64,000 nucleotides of DNA, taken from contig CAJXKK010000014.1 in NCBI GenBank assembly GCA_913055615.1, forward strand, positions 1-64,000. The letters are read 5' to 3'. Numbering within the stretch: position 1 is the first letter of the stretch; each line of letters opens with the position of its first letter. The position numbers were made by a program, and so were the translations under genes. Below are positions 2,653-8,811 of this stretch, in pieces. The DNA is from an uncultured Ectothiorhodospiraceae bacterium. GTDB taxonomy: Bacteria > Pseudomonadota > Gammaproteobacteria > XJ16 > Halofilaceae. The notes beneath the pieces are model-generated. The model ran no database searches. It worked only from the letters and a program-made list of their open reading frames with translations, and was not told the origin of the DNA.

Positions 2653-4023
2653 TCAGACCGATTCCTCCGTGCGCAGCGTCATCCGCACCCGCAGCCCCGG
2701 CTCATTGTCTTCGAGGAGCAGATCGCCGCTGTGCAGTTTCGCGACGGCAGCCACCAGGCTGAGCCCGAGGCCGCTGCCCGGTGAGCGGCGGTGCGTCTCC
2801 AGGCGCACGAAGCGTTCCAGGACGTTCTCGCGCTCGTCCGCGGGGACACCCGGCCCGCTGTCGGCGACGACGAGTTCCGGTCCGGCCTCGGTCTCGCGGG
2901 CGGCGAGTTCGATGCGGCCGCCCGACGGGGCGTATTTCACGGCATTGTCGACGAGGTTGGTCAGGGCCTGGAACAGCAGATCGCGGTCGCCCAGCGTACG
3001 GATGTGCTCGCCTGGTTCGACCACCAGCGTCTGCTCGTGCGCGGCGGCGACGGGTTCATAGAGTTCGCCGACGTCGTCGATCAGATCGCTCAGGTCGATG
3101 CGGCCGAAGCGCCGGCGGCTGCCCGACTCGACTTCTGCGATCCGCAGCAGGGCGTGGAACGTGTTCAGCAGGCCGTCCGCGTCGGCGATGGCCTGATCGA
3201 GCAGGGTGCCGTCGGGATCGTCGCCCGCCTGCAGGCGCTCCAGGCGCCAGCGCAGCCGCGTCAGCGGTGTCCGCAGGTCATGCGCGATGTTGTCCGAGAC
3301 CTGGCGCACGCCATCCATCAGGTCCTGGATCTGGTCCAGCATCCGATTGAGGTTCAGGCTCAGGCGATCGAAGGCGTCATCGGCACCGCGGATCGGCACC
3401 CGCTGCTGGAGTTCACCGGCCATCACCTCGTGCGCGGTCTGGTTGATCCGCTGCAATCGCTTCGCGAGCATCCGGCTGGTGATGAAACCACCGCCGATCG
3501 CCAGCGCCACCGCGATGCCCAGCCCCCATGCCGAGGCGCCGGCGATCAGGCGCTGGAACGAGCGTTCCGTGAAGACATTGCGGCCGACCAGCAGATGCAG
3601 GCCATTGCCGAGCGTGAAGGCACGCGCGCGTACGGGGTAGGCGGCGTTGCTGCCGCGGTCGAGCTGGAATTCGAGCCAGCCGGTTGCATCCGGTGCGACC
3701 GGTTCCGGCCAGCGATCGATGTTGCCGGCGATCGGGTTCATTTCCTTGTCGGTCAGCAGGTACACGGACTGACCGCCGATATTGGCCGCGGACTTGTTGC
3801 TGATCTCGCGTGCCAGCGCGCCCGTGCCGCCGTTGCGGTAGCGGTTGGCGAGTTCCGCGACCTCCGTGGCGATGGCGGCGTCCGTCTGGCGCGCGAGATA
3901 GCCGGCGGTGGCGTAGTGCACGAAGCCGAGCAGGCCGACCACCGATACGGTGAACAGCGCTGTGTAGAGCGCGGCGAGGCGGAAGGTCGCGCTCTTGAGG
4001 AGCGGTCTGATCTGCATGTTCAT
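2653..4023 (-). CDS. Sensor histidine kinase (HAMP, HisKA, HATPase)
   Basis: A 456-residue inner-membrane histidine kinase. Two transmembrane segments (about 13–36 and 163–184) flank a periplasmic sensor domain of about 125 residues. A HAMP linker follows (about 185–238), then the dimerisation helix with phospho-acceptor His248 in SDNIAHDLRTPLTRLRW and a GHKL ATPase domain with the N box around Asn360 (LVDNAVKYAP), DSGPG at 389–393 and GSGLGL at about 416–421. It lies 120 bp downstream of the response-regulator gene on the same strand and is its likely partner. The signal sensed is unknown; the adjacent HtrA-type protease suggests an envelope or metal stress input, which is inference. Confidence 0.93.
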   Translation of the reverse strand: MNMQIRPLLKSATFRLAALYTALFTVSVVGLLGFVHYATAGYLARQTDAAIATEVAELANRYRNGGTGALAREISNKSAANIGGQSVYLLTDKEMNPIAGNIDRWPEPVAPDATGWLEFQLDRGSNAAYPVRARAFTLGNGLHLLVGRNVFTERSFQRLIAGASAWGLGIAVALAIGGGFITSRMLAKRLQRINQTAHEVMAGELQQRVPIRGADDAFDRLSLNLNRMLDQIQDLMDGVRQVSDNIAHDLRTPLTRLRWRLERLQAGDDPDGTLLDQAIADADGLLNTFHALLRIAEVESGSRRRFGRIDLSDLIDDVGELYEPVAAAHEQTLVVEPGEHIRTLGDRDLLFQALTNLVDNAVKYAPSGGRIELAARETEAGPELVVADSGPGVPADERENVLERFVRLETHRRSPGSGLGLSLVAAVAKLHSGDLLLEDNEPGLRVRMTLRTEESV

Positions 4024-4143: not shown

Positions 4144-4821
4144 CTAATCCGGCGCGCGCAGCGTGTAACCCGCACCGCGGACGGTCTGCAGCATCTCGTG
4201 TTCATACCCGCGGTCGATCTTCTGGCGCAGCCGGCTGATGTGGACGTCGATCACGTTGGTCTGCGGGTCGAAGTGATAATCCCACACATGCTCCAGCAGC
4301 ATCGTACGCGTGACGACCTGACCGGCGTGACGCATCAGGTACTCGAGCAGCGAGAATTCGCGCGGCTTGAGTTCGATCGTGTCCTGCCCCCGATGCACCG
4401 TCCGGCCCAGCAGGTCCATCTCCAGTTCACCCACGACCAGCCGGGTCTGGTTGCCGGACGGGGACGGGCGGCGCAGCAGGGCCTCGAGCCGGGCGATCAG
4501 TTCGGAGAAGGAAAACGGCTTGACGAGATAGTCGTCGCTGCCCTCGTGCAGACCGGCCACGCGATCATCGACCTGTCCCAGCGCCGACAGGATGAGCACG
4601 GGGGTGGAGATATTGGCCTGGCGGACCGAGCGGATAATCGACAGGCCGTCGACATTCGGCAGCATGCGATCGACGATCATGGCATCGAACTCCTCGTAGA
4701 GCGCGAGGAAGAGGCCGTCCTTGCCATCGCTTGCCTGTTCGACGGTGTAGCCGTGCTCGCGCAGCCCCTTGGAGAGGTACGCCGCGACTTCCGCTTCGTC
4801 TTCAATCACCAGAATGCGCAT
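4144..4821 (-). CDS. OmpR/PhoB-family response regulator
   Basis: A 225-residue two-component response regulator. The receiver domain (1–115) has the acidic pocket at E7/D8, phospho-acceptor Asp51 in MIVDRMLPNVDG and a conserved lysine in YLVKPFSF. The C-terminal winged helix (about 128–222) ends in the usual RQKID...VRGAGYTL signature. Phosphorylated by the downstream kinase, it should bind tandem promoter repeats as a dimer. It is separated from the upstream protease gene by a strong terminator (4898–4926), so the regulator–kinase pair probably has its own promoter in the 76 bp between 4822 and 4897. Confidence 0.95.
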   Translation of the reverse strand: MRILVIEDEAEVAAYLSKGLREHGYTVEQASDGKDGLFLALYEEFDAMIVDRMLPNVDGLSIIRSVRQANISTPVLILSALGQVDDRVAGLHEGSDDYLVKPFSFSELIARLEALLRRPSPSGNQTRLVVGELEMDLLGRTVHRGQDTIELKPREFSLLEYLMRHAGQVVTRTMLLEHVWDYHFDPQTNVIDVHISRLRQKIDRGYEHEMLQTVRGAGYTLRAPD

Positions 4822-4946: not shown

Positions 4947-6392
4947 TTATTCCTGCGCCGGCAGCGTCAGCGACACGAAAAGGGTGTTATCGCCGCGGCG
5001 GATCTGAACCGCCACGGGCTGTTCCGTTGGCAGCGACTCCACGGTCTCCTTGAGCTCTTCGACGCTCGAAAGTTCCTGGCGGCCCAGCCGCAGGAGGATA
5101 TCGCCCGGGCGGATGCCCGCCTCGGCGACCGGACCGGACCCGACGCGCTGGACCAGCAGGCCGCGCTCGCGCAGGTCGAGTTCCTGTCGTTCTTCGGAGG
5201 TCAGTTCGCGCACGGCGACGTTGAGTGCCGTTTCTTCCGCATCGCCGCCGCTACGGCTGCCGTCATCGTTATCGCTACGCCCGTCGGTGTCCTCGTAGTC
5301 GGACAGCGCGCCGACCTCGACCTCGATGGTCCGGCGCTCACCATCGCGCAGCACCCCCACGTCGACCGATTCGCCGGCGCGTATCCGGCCCACCATGGGT
5401 GGCAGGTCGGCCGCCTCGGCGACCTGCTTGCCGTCGAATGAGAGGATCACGTCGCCCGCCTTCAGGCCGGCCTGTTCGGCGGGGCCGTCGGGTACGGTCT
5501 CGGACACCAGCGCCCCGATCGGCTTGTCGAGGCTGAACGACTGGGCGAGGCCACGGTCGATGGGCTGGATGTTGACGCCCAGATAGCCACGCTCCACGCG
5601 GCCGTGCTCCTTGAGCTGCTCCATGACGTCCATGGCCGTATTGATCGGTACCGCGAAAGACAGGCCCATGTAGCCGCCCGAGCGGCTGAAGATCTGCGAG
5701 TTGATACCGATCACCTCGCCCTCGCCGTTGAACAGCGGGCCGCCCGAATTGCCGGGGTTGACGGCCACATCGGTCTGGATGAACGGCGTATAGGTATCAT
5801 TGGGGAGGTTGCGGTTGAGCGCGCTGACGATCCCCTGCGTGGCCGTGTGCTCAAGGCCGAAGGGCGAGCCGATCGCCAGCACCCATTGCCCCACACTGAG
5901 TTGCCCGGAATCCCCGAGTTCGACGGTATCGAGTCCGTCGGCGTCGATCTTGAGCAGGGCGACGTCACTGGGCTTGTCCACGCCCACGACCTCCGCCTCG
6001 TATTCCTGGCGGTCATCCATCTTGACGATGATCTGGTCCGCCTGGTTGACCACGTGCGCATTGGTGAGCACGTAACCGTCGTCGGATACGACGAAACCGG
6101 AACCCAGCGAGCTGCGTTCGCGCTGCTGCTCCGGGCCCCCGCGTTCGAAGCGCTCGAAGAAGTCGCGGAAGGGGCTGTCGGGTGGCAGCCGCTCCATCAG
6201 GCCTTCGGGCATGTTGCCCGACTCGCGCGATACGGTCTGGGTCGTCGCGATGTGTACGACCGCGCTGCGGTTGTTTTCCACGATCCGCGTGAAATCGGGT
6301 ACACGGTCTTCGGCGCCCGCCGGGGCCGTGGCGCCGACAAGAAGCGCCACGCCAACCAGGGCGGGGGTGAGCATCGGAATTCGGGTCCGCAT
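4947..6392 (-). CDS. degP: Periplasmic serine endoprotease, DegP/HtrA/MucD type
   Basis: A 481-residue HtrA-family protease and chaperone that degrades misfolded periplasmic proteins. An N-terminal signal peptide ends near residue 27 (ATAPAGA-ED). The trypsin-like domain carries the triad His113 (LTNAHVV), Asp143 (SDVALLKI) and Ser216 (GNSGGPL). Two PDZ domains follow (about 275–360 and 385–475). The length is normal for DegP/MucD. It has its own terminator and sits upstream of a two-component system on the same strand; the pairing suggests a shared envelope-stress role, though I see no clear sigma-E promoter. Assignment to the family is certain; DegP rather than DegQ or MucD is by architecture only. 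Confidence 0.95.
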   Translation of the reverse strand: MRTRIPMLTPALVGVALLVGATAPAGAEDRVPDFTRIVENNRSAVVHIATTQTVSRESGNMPEGLMERLPPDSPFRDFFERFERGGPEQQRERSSLGSGFVVSDDGYVLTNAHVVNQADQIIVKMDDRQEYEAEVVGVDKPSDVALLKIDADGLDTVELGDSGQLSVGQWVLAIGSPFGLEHTATQGIVSALNRNLPNDTYTPFIQTDVAVNPGNSGGPLFNGEGEVIGINSQIFSRSGGYMGLSFAVPINTAMDVMEQLKEHGRVERGYLGVNIQPIDRGLAQSFSLDKPIGALVSETVPDGPAEQAGLKAGDVILSFDGKQVAEAADLPPMVGRIRAGESVDVGVLRDGERRTIEVEVGALSDYEDTDGRSDNDDGSRSGGDAEETALNVAVRELTSEERQELDLRERGLLVQRVGSGPVAEAGIRPGDILLRLGRQELSSVEELKETVESLPTEQPVAVQIRRGDNTLFVSLTLPAQE

Positions 6393-6525
6393 CCTCGAGT
6401 ATCTCCCGTGTCGTCAATCAAAAAGGGTTTCGCAGGTGACTCATTGTCCAGCGTGGTGCTTTCCGGGGCCTGTCCGCGGTATTACCGCTTGTTCATCATG
6501 CGCCGTGCATCGGGCCGCCCGGCCT

Positions 6526-6972: not shown

Positions 6973-7309
6973 AGCGTGTCCGGAATATCCGCCTGGCCCG
7001 CCAGTGTCGCGCCTGGCCCGCCGTGAGCGCGACCCCGGTGTGTCCGTCAGTCGAAGCGCCGCGGGGTGACGGGGCGCGCCGTGCTGGGCAAACCGCCTTC
7101 AGCGGCGATAACGATCACGAGCCGGGTCGGCAGGAGAGTCCCCGGCAGCAACCGCGGGGGAGGCGGGCGATTGCCTGATCGACGCCCCGGGAACGGGGAT
7201 CCCGGCGTCGTCATACGGCAGGCGCGTGCGTGCGCGACGATTCGCGTCGTGACGACGCTCGGTCGGCCGATGACGCCGCGACCAGCCGCGGCGTCATCCG
7301 GTCAGCGGT
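6973..7309. other. Intergenic region, no gene; hairpin and a C-rich motif
   Basis: No gene is supported in this 337-bp gap. Two items stand out: the hairpin at 7269–7298 just after the DUF4168 gene, and a minus-strand segment at about 7151–7180 (ATCAGGCAATC followed by C-rich sequence) that resembles the tail of the tandem sRNA-like units at 7.9–8.1 kb and may be a decayed third copy. Confidence 0.4.
7269..7298 (-). terminator. Probable terminator hairpin of the DUF4168 gene
   Basis: A perfect 12-bp inverted repeat (GATGACGCCGCG / CGCGGCGTCATC) with a 6-nt loop lies 11 bp after the DUF4168 stop codon. There is no U-tract on the minus strand, so it may be a non-canonical terminator or a 3'-end protecting hairpin. 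Confidence 0.55.
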
Positions 7310-7735
7310 TCAGCCCGAGTTGTCGTTCTTTTCCTGCATCATGCTCTGCAGTTTCGAACGCAGTTCCTCGTCGTTGTTCAGCTTCTTGCCGATGCGACGG
7401 TATTCGGCGATTTTGAGGCCTTCATCGCGGATCGCGCTGACCATGGCCTGCTGGCCCTGCTTGCGCAGTTCCTGCTGCTTCGACTCGTCTTCCGCCTGCT
7501 GCATCTTTTGCCCGTACTCGGCGCGCACGGTCTGCAGCTGCCCGTAGGCGGCCGCGAATTTCTCGAGATCCGCCTCCGTTACCGGCTCGTTCGAGGCGGC
7601 GGCGTCGGACTGGTCGCTGGCGTTTCCGGACTGGCCGGAGCCCTCGGCGTCGGCGGCGCTCACCATTGTTACGGGCGCGAGCACGAGCAGCAGCGCGAGC
7701 ACGATGCCGCCGTTGAGCCGTGTGACGTTGGTCAT
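7310..7735 (-). CDS. Exported DUF4168 family protein
   Basis: A 141-residue secreted protein with a signal peptide (hydrophobic LALLLVLAPVTMVSA ending near residue 27), a short Ser/Gly/Asp-rich linker and a DUF4168 domain (about 48–138, LEKFAAAYGQLQTVRAEY … IGKKLNNDEELRSKLQSMM). DUF4168 proteins are small, probably periplasmic helical proteins of unknown function. The start at 7735 is set by AGGGGAAATCAT immediately upstream; the longer open frame would run through the sRNA-like repeat. The closest upstream elements are those tandem units, whose terminators point toward this gene. Confidence 0.8.
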   Translation of the reverse strand: MTNVTRLNGGIVLALLLVLAPVTMVSAADAEGSGQSGNASDQSDAAASNEPVTEADLEKFAAAYGQLQTVRAEYGQKMQQAEDESKQQELRKQGQQAMVSAIRDEGLKIAEYRRIGKKLNNDEELRSKLQSMMQEKNDNSG

Positions 7736-7880
7736 ATGATTTCCCCTGTGAATTCCACGATCTGTGTAGTAGTTCCCCGGCCCAACCGAGGCCGGACGAA
7801 CGCGCATCCTGCATGCCGCGACCTTTACGGGTCCTGTGCGGCGGATTACAGAGCGTTCATCCGGGTGGCTGGAAGCGGGC

Positions 7881-7908
7881 AAAAAAAGAGCCGCAGCGAG
7901 TGCGGCTC
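7881..7908 (-). terminator. Rho-independent terminator of repeat unit A
   Basis: Minus-strand stem GAGCCGCA / TGCGGCTC (8 bp, 7888–7908) with a 5-nt loop, followed by seven U (7881–7887). It lies about 145 bp upstream of the DUF4168 start, so it does not terminate a known protein gene. Confidence 0.88.
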
Positions 7909-7991
7909 CAGGGGGGGGGGGCTTACCTGATTGCCATCGACCGCGCGGGGGATCAGCCGTCGTTCGATGCTTCGCATTGTGCATGTGTCAA
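7881..7991 (-). ncRNA. Candidate small RNA A (tandem sibling pair)
   Basis: Read on the minus strand, this segment has the layout of a small regulatory RNA: a TTGACA at 7991–7986 that could be a -35 box or an internal sequence, a conserved stem closed by CATCGA … TCGATG, an unpaired segment GGCAATCAGG, an eleven-C run, and a rho-independent terminator with seven U. No start codon with a ribosome-binding site opens a frame of useful length. The same layout is kept in unit B although the loops differ. The 5' end is uncertain because no good -10 box is seen. Function is unknown; the C-rich stretch could pair with Shine-Dalgarno sequences. Confidence 0.5.
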
Positions 7992-8052
7992 AGTGAACCG
8001 GTCCTGTCCGTAGCGTTACGTGGAGTTCATGGAGGGCTGCGGTTACGGGCAG

Positions 8053-8079
8053 AAAAAAAGGCCGCAGGGTGTGCGGCTC
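8053..8079 (-). terminator. Rho-independent terminator of repeat unit B
   Basis: Minus-strand stem of 6 bp (GCCGCA / TGCGGC, 8061–8077) with a 5-nt loop, followed after one base by seven U (8053–8059). Weaker stem than in unit A but the same position. Confidence 0.8.
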
Positions 8080-8158
8080 AAAGGGGGAGGGGATTGCCTG
8101 ATTGCCATCGACCGCCGGTGCGTCCGTCGTTCGATGGGCGGCATTGTGCAGGTGGAGG
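8053..8158 (-). ncRNA. Candidate small RNA B (tandem sibling pair)
   Basis: Second unit of the pair. The minus strand keeps GCACAATGC, the CATCGAACGACGG … CGGTCGATGG hairpin, GGCAATCAGGCAATC, a pyrimidine run CCCCTCCCCCTTT, and a terminator with seven U. Differences from unit A fall mainly in the loop of the first hairpin and in the C-rich run, while both stems are preserved, which is what selection on RNA structure would give. No obvious promoter hexamers are seen. It is bounded by the Nudix gene's 3' end upstream and unit A downstream. Confidence 0.5.
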
Positions 8159-8196
8159 GTGAACCGGTCCTGTAAGTCGTGTTACGCAGTGTTCAT

Positions 8197-8218
8197 CGCC
8201 CGGGTGCCTGCCCGGGCG
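8197..8218 (-). terminator. Hairpin after the Nudix gene
   Basis: Perfect 8-bp stem CGCCCGGG / CCCGGGCG with a 6-nt loop, 6 bp beyond the Nudix stop codon. No U-tract follows on the minus strand, so termination activity is uncertain. Confidence 0.5.
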
Positions 8219-8224
8219 TTGGCT

Positions 8225-8749
8225 TTACGGCGACCATGGCGGATCGGCAAGCCGCGGCAACAGCGGCTCGAGGATGCGCCAGGTCGCACCCCAGATCCGG
8301 ATGTCGCCGACGCGGAGACACGGAAACTCGGCCGGCTCGGCGAGACCGTGGGCGGCGATCCGTTCATGGCGCCGGGCCTGCGGGTGCAGCAGGTCCGCAA
8401 CCGGCAGTTCGATGATCCCTTCGACCTCGCCGGGTCCCGGCCGCCAGTACGCGGGGCGTTCGATGTGCGCGAGAAACGGATGGATCCGGAAACCGCTCGA
8501 GAATGTGTGGACGGGCGGCAGGGATTCGACCAGCGTGATGCCATCGGCGTTGGCGCCCGTCTCTTCGACCGTCTCACGGATCGCGGTGGCCGCCAGCGTA
8601 GCGTCACGGGCGTCGCGCTTGCCGCCGGGCAGTGCGATCTCGCCCGCGTGGAGACCGCGATTGACGCGGCGGATCAGCAGGAGCTGAAGAGCCCCGTCCG
8701 GGGCGCTGAACAGCGGTACGAGCACGGCGGCTTCGACGGTGCGGGGCAT
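8225..8749 (-). CDS. Nudix hydrolase, CoA pyrophosphatase (NudL/YeaB) type
   Basis: A 174-residue Nudix enzyme. The sequence RRVNRGLHAGEIALPGGKRD followed by ATAIRETVEETG (residues 28–65) combines the Nudix box with the UPF0035/NudL motif (H-A-G-x-I-A-x-P-G-G-x-x-D) that marks CoA pyrophosphatases, which cleave CoA to 4'-phosphopantetheine and 3',5'-ADP. The metal-binding REtVEEtG core is intact. The start MPRTVEAAVLVPL at 8749 matches the family length; the Shine-Dalgarno is weak. It follows the ABC-class ATPase gene by 62 bp on the same strand, so the two may be co-transcribed. Confidence 0.87.
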   Translation of the reverse strand: MPRTVEAAVLVPLFSAPDGALQLLLIRRVNRGLHAGEIALPGGKRDARDATLAATAIRETVEETGANADGITLVESLPPVHTFSSGFRIHPFLAHIERPAYWRPGPGEVEGIIELPVADLLHPQARRHERIAAHGLAEPAEFPCLRVGDIRIWGATWRILEPLLPRLADPPWSP

Positions 8750-8811
8750 CGGAGGCTTCAACAAGGGCGCTGACCCAGAATAGCAGTCCGGGCGCCGGCG
8801 TACCGATTGGA

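Follow-up and report, generated by a model that had tools for sequence, protein, structure and literature searches.

Several similar small RNAs (csRNAs), each with two stem-loops around an unpaired anti-Shine-Dalgarno (anti-SD) stretch, are found in streptococci under the control of CiaRH: their promoters carry a direct-repeat TTTAAG-N5-TTTAAG box that is read by the OmpR-family regulator CiaR, htrA belongs to the same regulon and the csRNA types differ between streptococcal species (PMC3091779). The locus described here, comprising two units (A and B) from a gammaproteobacterium, is similar in that it has predicted sibling sRNAs, an N5-spaced box, two stem-loops together with an unpaired stretch, and a box shared with an HtrA/DegP protease gene. 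It differs in the sequence of the box (TGAAC-N5-GTAAY as opposed to the CiaR box), in the pairing motif (csRNAs carry complements to both the SD and the AUG, whilst units A and B carry a long C run) and in the host, csRNAs being from Gram-positive bacteria and exhibiting no visible sequence homology to A and B. CiaRH-csRNA-HtrA is the closest working parallel, with the resemblance being one of working and not of descent.

Within the gammaproteobacteria, the nearest parallel is that of OmrA and OmrB from E. coli, two sibling sRNAs under OmpR (PMC4211561). Units A and B are likewise a sibling pair in a gammaproteobacterium for which we propose an OmpR-family regulator, although they have no Rfam match to OmrA/OmrB or to any other family. 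The pairing region of OmrA/OmrB is the 5'-end, whereas that of A and B would be internal and C-rich, and to our knowledge neither degP nor a DUF4168 gene is co-regulated with OmrA/OmrB. A preliminary description of the locus had pointed instead to the Rhodobacter RNAs CcsR1-4, which are processed from a precursor together with ccaF1 under RpoHI/RpoHII (PMC8307010). This likeness holds for the sibling arrangement, with both being homologous tandem sRNAs, and for the presence of a C-rich motif; it does not extend to gene organisation, as units A and B have separate promoters and terminators and lie downstream of a NUDIX hydrolase gene, not ccaF1. The C-rich motif of CcsR1-4 is anti-SD-like and is presented in a loop (CCUCCUCCC), whereas A and B have an unpaired CCCCUCCCCC or C11 between their hairpins; it is a locus from a third species, with C6 runs in its hairpins, that resembles CcsR most. 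A sibling pair that controls metabolism is also described for Neisseria (PMC5362039), and here the comparison covers the sibling pair and the Gram-negative host. No homology of units A and B to the csRNAs, OmrA/OmrB or CcsR was shown. The units constitute a new family within an established class of regulators. Our main reading, to which we assign a probability of roughly 0.6, is that A and B are sibling anti-SD sRNAs driven by an envelope-stress two-component system.

Anatomy of the sibling units

The window, a 64-kb stretch of DNA that is contig C14 of a 3.0-Mb genome, contains units A and B head-to-tail on the minus strand, downstream of the NUDIX hydrolase gene (8749-8225) and ahead of the gene for a DUF4168 protein (7735-7310), each unit with its own promoter and its own Rho-independent terminator outside protein genes. 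The predicted RNA starts lie 167 bp apart, in agreement with the two units of about 170 bp initially reported at this place. The predicted RNAs are:

8053..8137, minus strand: sRNA A (5' hairpin, unpaired GCAAUCAGGCAAUCCCCUCCCCC, terminator and U7; covariance-model match 8137-8052, 99.6 bits)
7881..7970, minus strand: sRNA B (5' hairpin, unpaired GCAAUCAGGUAAG and C11, terminator and U7; covariance-model match 108.9 bits)

Both RNAs exhibit the same layout, in which CAUCGA/UCGAUG closes a 5' hairpin that is followed by an unpaired GCAAUCAGG-NAA-N-C-rich stretch and then by a GC-rich terminator hairpin with U7, such that two stem-loops flank the unpaired C-rich stretch in the predicted fold. 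At the DNA level the CATCGA/TCGATG stem and GGCAATCAGG are present in both units, the C-rich run is CCCCTCCCCC in unit A and an 11-C run in unit B (7911-7921), and the terminators comprise stems at 8077-8061 (A) and 7909-7887 (B), each with T7. The hairpin, shared stretch, C-rich runs (including that of eleven C) and minus-strand terminators of the preliminary description are hence all present, with the two terminators being the only such sites on this strand in 7200-8800. Ten-mers with at least nine C and otherwise T occur only twice in the whole window (both strands), once in each unit. Compared with shuffled sequences, the folding energy of the window copies A and B is by itself unexceptional (z -1.6 and -0.5), and that of the three sister-species copies is exceptional (z -3.9, -3.2 and -3.8); the window copies fold no better than shuffles. 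Conservation is the stronger evidence for the units. We hold the existence of sRNA genes A and B to be very likely, and read them as sibling genes for trans-acting sRNAs of approximately 85-90 nt.

Downstream of the DUF4168 gene, at 7150-7190 on the minus strand, GTCGATCAGGCAATCGCCCGCCTCCCCC follows a stable hairpin in a manner like the hairpin-to-C-rich part of the sRNAs. The sister species has only a degenerate version of this stretch, which may be what is left of a third unit, an sRNA from the 3'-UTR or a chance resemblance.

Conservation and extent of the family

The search for relatives yielded two congeners and otherwise members of the same class only. Both units are kept at the same place in the sister species (G001), where a third, free-standing unit is found 110 kb from the tandem pair (G001:C4:297428-297519, minus strand), where it faces a large convergent OmpA-like gene and is itself followed by no gene. 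Between the window and the sister species the RNA segments are 76-100% identical (sRNA A 85-94%, sRNA B 76-100%) and the promoters 75-84%, compared to 19-50% for the inter-unit spacers; conservation also reaches beyond the C-rich run, with GCAAUCAGG equally conserved. Unit A is more similar to the A unit of the sister species (86%) than to the adjacent unit B (79%), which indicates that the duplication is older than the species split and that both copies have been retained. The outer CAUCGA/UCGAUG stem is retained in the free-standing copy, the inner stem of which is altered with pairing still predicted. No pair with a two-sided change was found in the five-sequence alignment, in which the stems of the tandem copies are nearly invariant: formal covariation is weak owing to this invariance and to the small number of sequences.

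The five copies from the two species score 59-109 bits in the covariance-model search across relatives that had been suggested as a check, and convincing matches among 369 genomes of the class were obtained in the genus only. Matches in two other families (G337, G157) were rejected, the first overlapping the end of an ORF and its terminator and the others being C-rich 3' ends with a terminator; given that 369 genomes were searched, these were taken as chance. Comparison with Rfam 15 gave no match of the units over threshold: RF02451 (ncr1241) was rejected at 25.1 bits against a gathering cut-off of 60 bits, as was asX2, which fell far under its threshold. A genome-wide 15-mer scan of GTDB contigs was uninformative, with matches spread over phyla at chance expectation. 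No reading frame in the units is conserved between the window and the sister species, and a small peptide was rejected as in B the ATGGCAATCAGG frame runs for only four codons before a stop, and in the B unit of the sister species it is without an ATG.

The tandem duplication and the dispersed third copy in one species would also fit units left over from a small repeat or mobile element, or coding for peptides, without function as RNA. This we regard as extremely improbable: this genome has only two copies and the sister species three, the RNA and promoters are conserved whilst the spacers are not, unit A is closer to its counterpart in the sister species than to B, and the reading frames are not conserved. 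The earlier claim of an sRNA family that is undescribed, as judged from Rfam and the papers searched, is instead supported by five homologous units in two species, one of them free-standing, that share a conserved promoter, hairpin, unpaired stretch and terminator.

A promoter box shared with degP and DUF4168

Alignment of the upstream regions revealed a promoter common to the units, TGAAC-N5-GTAAY-N9-[-35]-N17/18-[-10], with AGGNCC as the -35 and, for example, CACAAT or CATAAT as the -10. The hairpin begins 6-7 nt after the end of the -10, and hence would form the start of the RNA. The same box and geometry are found before the DUF4168 gene and degP:

8141..8197, minus strand: promoter of sRNA A (TGAAC 8195-8191, GTAAC 8185-8181, -35 AGGACC 8171-8166, -10 CACAAT 8148-8143; profile E 2.4e-13)
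7974..8031, minus strand: promoter of sRNA B (TGAAC 8029-8025, GTAAC 8019-8015, -35 AGGACC 8005-8000, -10 CACAAT 7981-7976; profile E 1.0e-12)
7804..7861, minus strand: promoter of the DUF4168 gene (TGAAC 7859, GTAAT 7849, -10 CAGGAT 7811-7806; profile E 7.2e-12)
6442..6497, minus strand: promoter of degP (TGAAC 6495, GTAAT 6485, -10 GACAAT 6448-6443; profile E 7.8e-12)

The separate promoter of each unit, and the link that the shared box makes between sRNA A, sRNA B, the DUF4168 gene and degP, had gone unnoticed in the preliminary description. A promoter profile built from nine such promoters identifies these four as the only strong sites in this genome (E <=8e-12; next 0.04), and five strong sites in the sister species. 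A looser geometry, GTAAY-N32/33-NANNAT, occurs five times in the 128 kb of strand of the window, with four of the five being the promoters listed above, and is also present in the 250 bp preceding each of the three further DUF4168 paralogs of this genome (G000:C50, C40, C25). As this looser pattern was drawn up after viewing the upstream regions of the paralogs, it constitutes strong support and not a blind test; it is also possible that the paralogs inherited their promoter geometry with the duplicated genes. That all four DUF4168 copies found in the genome carry this geometry provides a first functional hint for DUF4168, for which our literature search found no paper. The protein genes concerned are:

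7310..7735, minus strand: DUF4168 small exported protein (Pfam PF13767, E 3.6e-13), a probable fellow regulon member
4947..6392, minus strand: Do/DegP-family periplasmic serine protease (TIGR02037, 498 bits, above cut-off)
4144..4821, minus strand: OmpR-family response regulator, directly after degP (PF00072 and PF00486), the proposed activator of the box
2653..4023, minus strand: sensor histidine kinase (HAMP, HisKA, HATPase_c), the proposed partner of the regulator

In two species the units carry terminators and immediately precede the DUF4168 gene on its strand, which could suggest that they form a leader of this gene, in which tandem promoters and attenuator-like terminators set the level of read-through without any role in trans. 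We consider such a leader unlikely, since after unit B there is a further promoter copy that belongs to the DUF4168 gene itself, the third unit of the sister species is free-standing and convergent with another gene, and the unpaired GCAAUCAGG/C-rich stretch, for which a leader would have no use, is conserved. The DUF4168 protein looks to be a co-regulated member of the same regulon rather than a target of the sRNAs.

OmpR-family activators typically use a repeated box beside a poor -35, and the spacing of the TGAAC-N5-GTAAY box resembles that of an OmpR-family site. The response regulator encoded after degP is 99% identical in the sister species, similar regulators are widespread in the class, and a degP-like gene lies right beside such a regulator, often divergently, in 10 of 28 loci from other families. 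We deem it probable that the adjacent two-component system controls the box, with its regulator as the putative binding protein. The same sRNA genes could nonetheless be served by another regulator, with the adjacent system being incidental: the box half-sites vary (TGAAC, TTACG, TGACT) and a first look at the genome gives 27 candidates for other OmpR-family regulators. This is the less plausible assignment, as one of the four strong sites precedes degP, the adjacency of degP and regulator recurs in other families, and the spacing of the box resembles that of OmpR-family sites.

A response regulator-kinase pair beside a degP-like gene is recurrent in many gammaproteobacterial families, and GTAAY is found before several of the degP genes at the regulator loci from other families, which is suggestive only. 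This linkage of two-component system and DegP is general and merits separate study.

Possible targets and proposed mechanism

Duplexes were predicted with the start regions of the 53 genes in the window. The start region of the DUF4168 gene ranks only 47th of these, and thus the earlier suggestion that the RNAs control this neighbour by base-pairing is not upheld, with a shared promoter box being found in its place; degP, at rank 28 of 53, was also rejected as a direct target. A 12-nt perfect complement to sRNA A at the start of an ABC-class ATPase gene (10511) was set aside as it is not conserved in the sister species. Genome-wide, the long complementary sites besides the sRNA loci fall inside genes or in unclear regions, with none at a convincing gene start. 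The C-rich motif is in keeping with the broader suggestion that the RNAs act on many mRNAs through anti-SD pairing, whilst a target to go with it was not found in these searches.

The same result leaves room for RNAs that are real and bind a protein or sequester another RNA as a sponge: GCAAUCAGG is conserved as much as the C-rich run, neither the duplex ranking in the window nor the genome-wide complementarity search gave an mRNA target, and a C-rich stretch could bind G-rich RNA or a C-binding protein. However, anti-SD RNAs are classically arranged with unpaired C-rich sequence flanked by two hairpins, as seen in the csRNAs (PMC3091779), and C-rich loops are also present in the third species. 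We judge a protein-binding or sponge function to be rather unlikely, and lean, by a small margin over even odds, towards anti-SD action.

The gene anatomy, the conservation, the box with its small gene set, the adjacent two-component system and the Hfq gene of this genome, all of which were computed here, can be joined in a scheme in which we infer transcription of the units, the regulator that binds the box, the signal, the use of Hfq, anti-SD action and the kind of target. The promoter of each unit would be sigma-70-type and activator-dependent, with a poor -35 next to the TGAAC-N5-GTAAY box, and the response regulator of the OmpR family whose gene follows degP would probably be the activator. 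On sensing envelope trouble, the kinase would act through this regulator to induce the sRNAs at the same time as DegP and the exported DUF4168 proteins. Probably working with Hfq, for which their U7 tails are suited, the sRNAs would use the unpaired GCAAUCAGG/C-rich stretch to cover purine-rich Shine-Dalgarno regions, leading to less synthesis of some, probably exported, proteins. Such a scheme offers a circuit for envelope stress that is open to test and, for a predicted one, unusually complete, running from kinase and regulator through the box to the protease, the exported proteins and the sRNAs, in a little-studied gammaproteobacterial lineage.

The corresponding locus in a third species

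In the third species (G002) no homolog of the RNA was detectable by covariance-model search. The syntenic position, right after the NUDIX gene (G002:C198:27379-27551), exhibits the box together with a -35 (AGGACA) and a -10 (TATCAT); this promoter is the second-best profile match in G002, albeit a weak one (E 0.32). Downstream of the box, a stretch of 117 nt holds three hairpins, and a C6 run lies in or close to the loop of each one; the predicted stability of this fold greatly exceeds that of shuffled sequences (z -6.4). The stretch has no sequence similarity to units A and B and no U-tract terminator downstream, and is followed by a separate ABC-transporter operon. If transcribed, the G002 RNA has nothing in common with A and B beyond the input box and the C-rich motif, and the locus would then be a clean case of turnover of an sRNA body with persistence of the input promoter and the pairing motif. 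Tentatively, one may envisage that a Gram-negative lineage has independently built the logic of CiaRH-csRNA-HtrA, in which a two-component system couples DegP to sibling anti-SD RNAs and only the regulator box and the C-rich pairing motif are maintained by selection, leaving the RNA body free to be replaced entirely at the same locus in a related species, with three C6-bearing hairpins in place of two short RNAs; we put this possibility at below even odds.

Two further observations were made in G002. The permease gene of the ABC transporter encodes a long His/Asp-rich repeat, suggesting metal binding. The best match to the promoter profile in this genome (G002:C117:13795-13843) lies before the gene for a small exported Asp/Trp-rich protein, which is a possible further member of the regulon.
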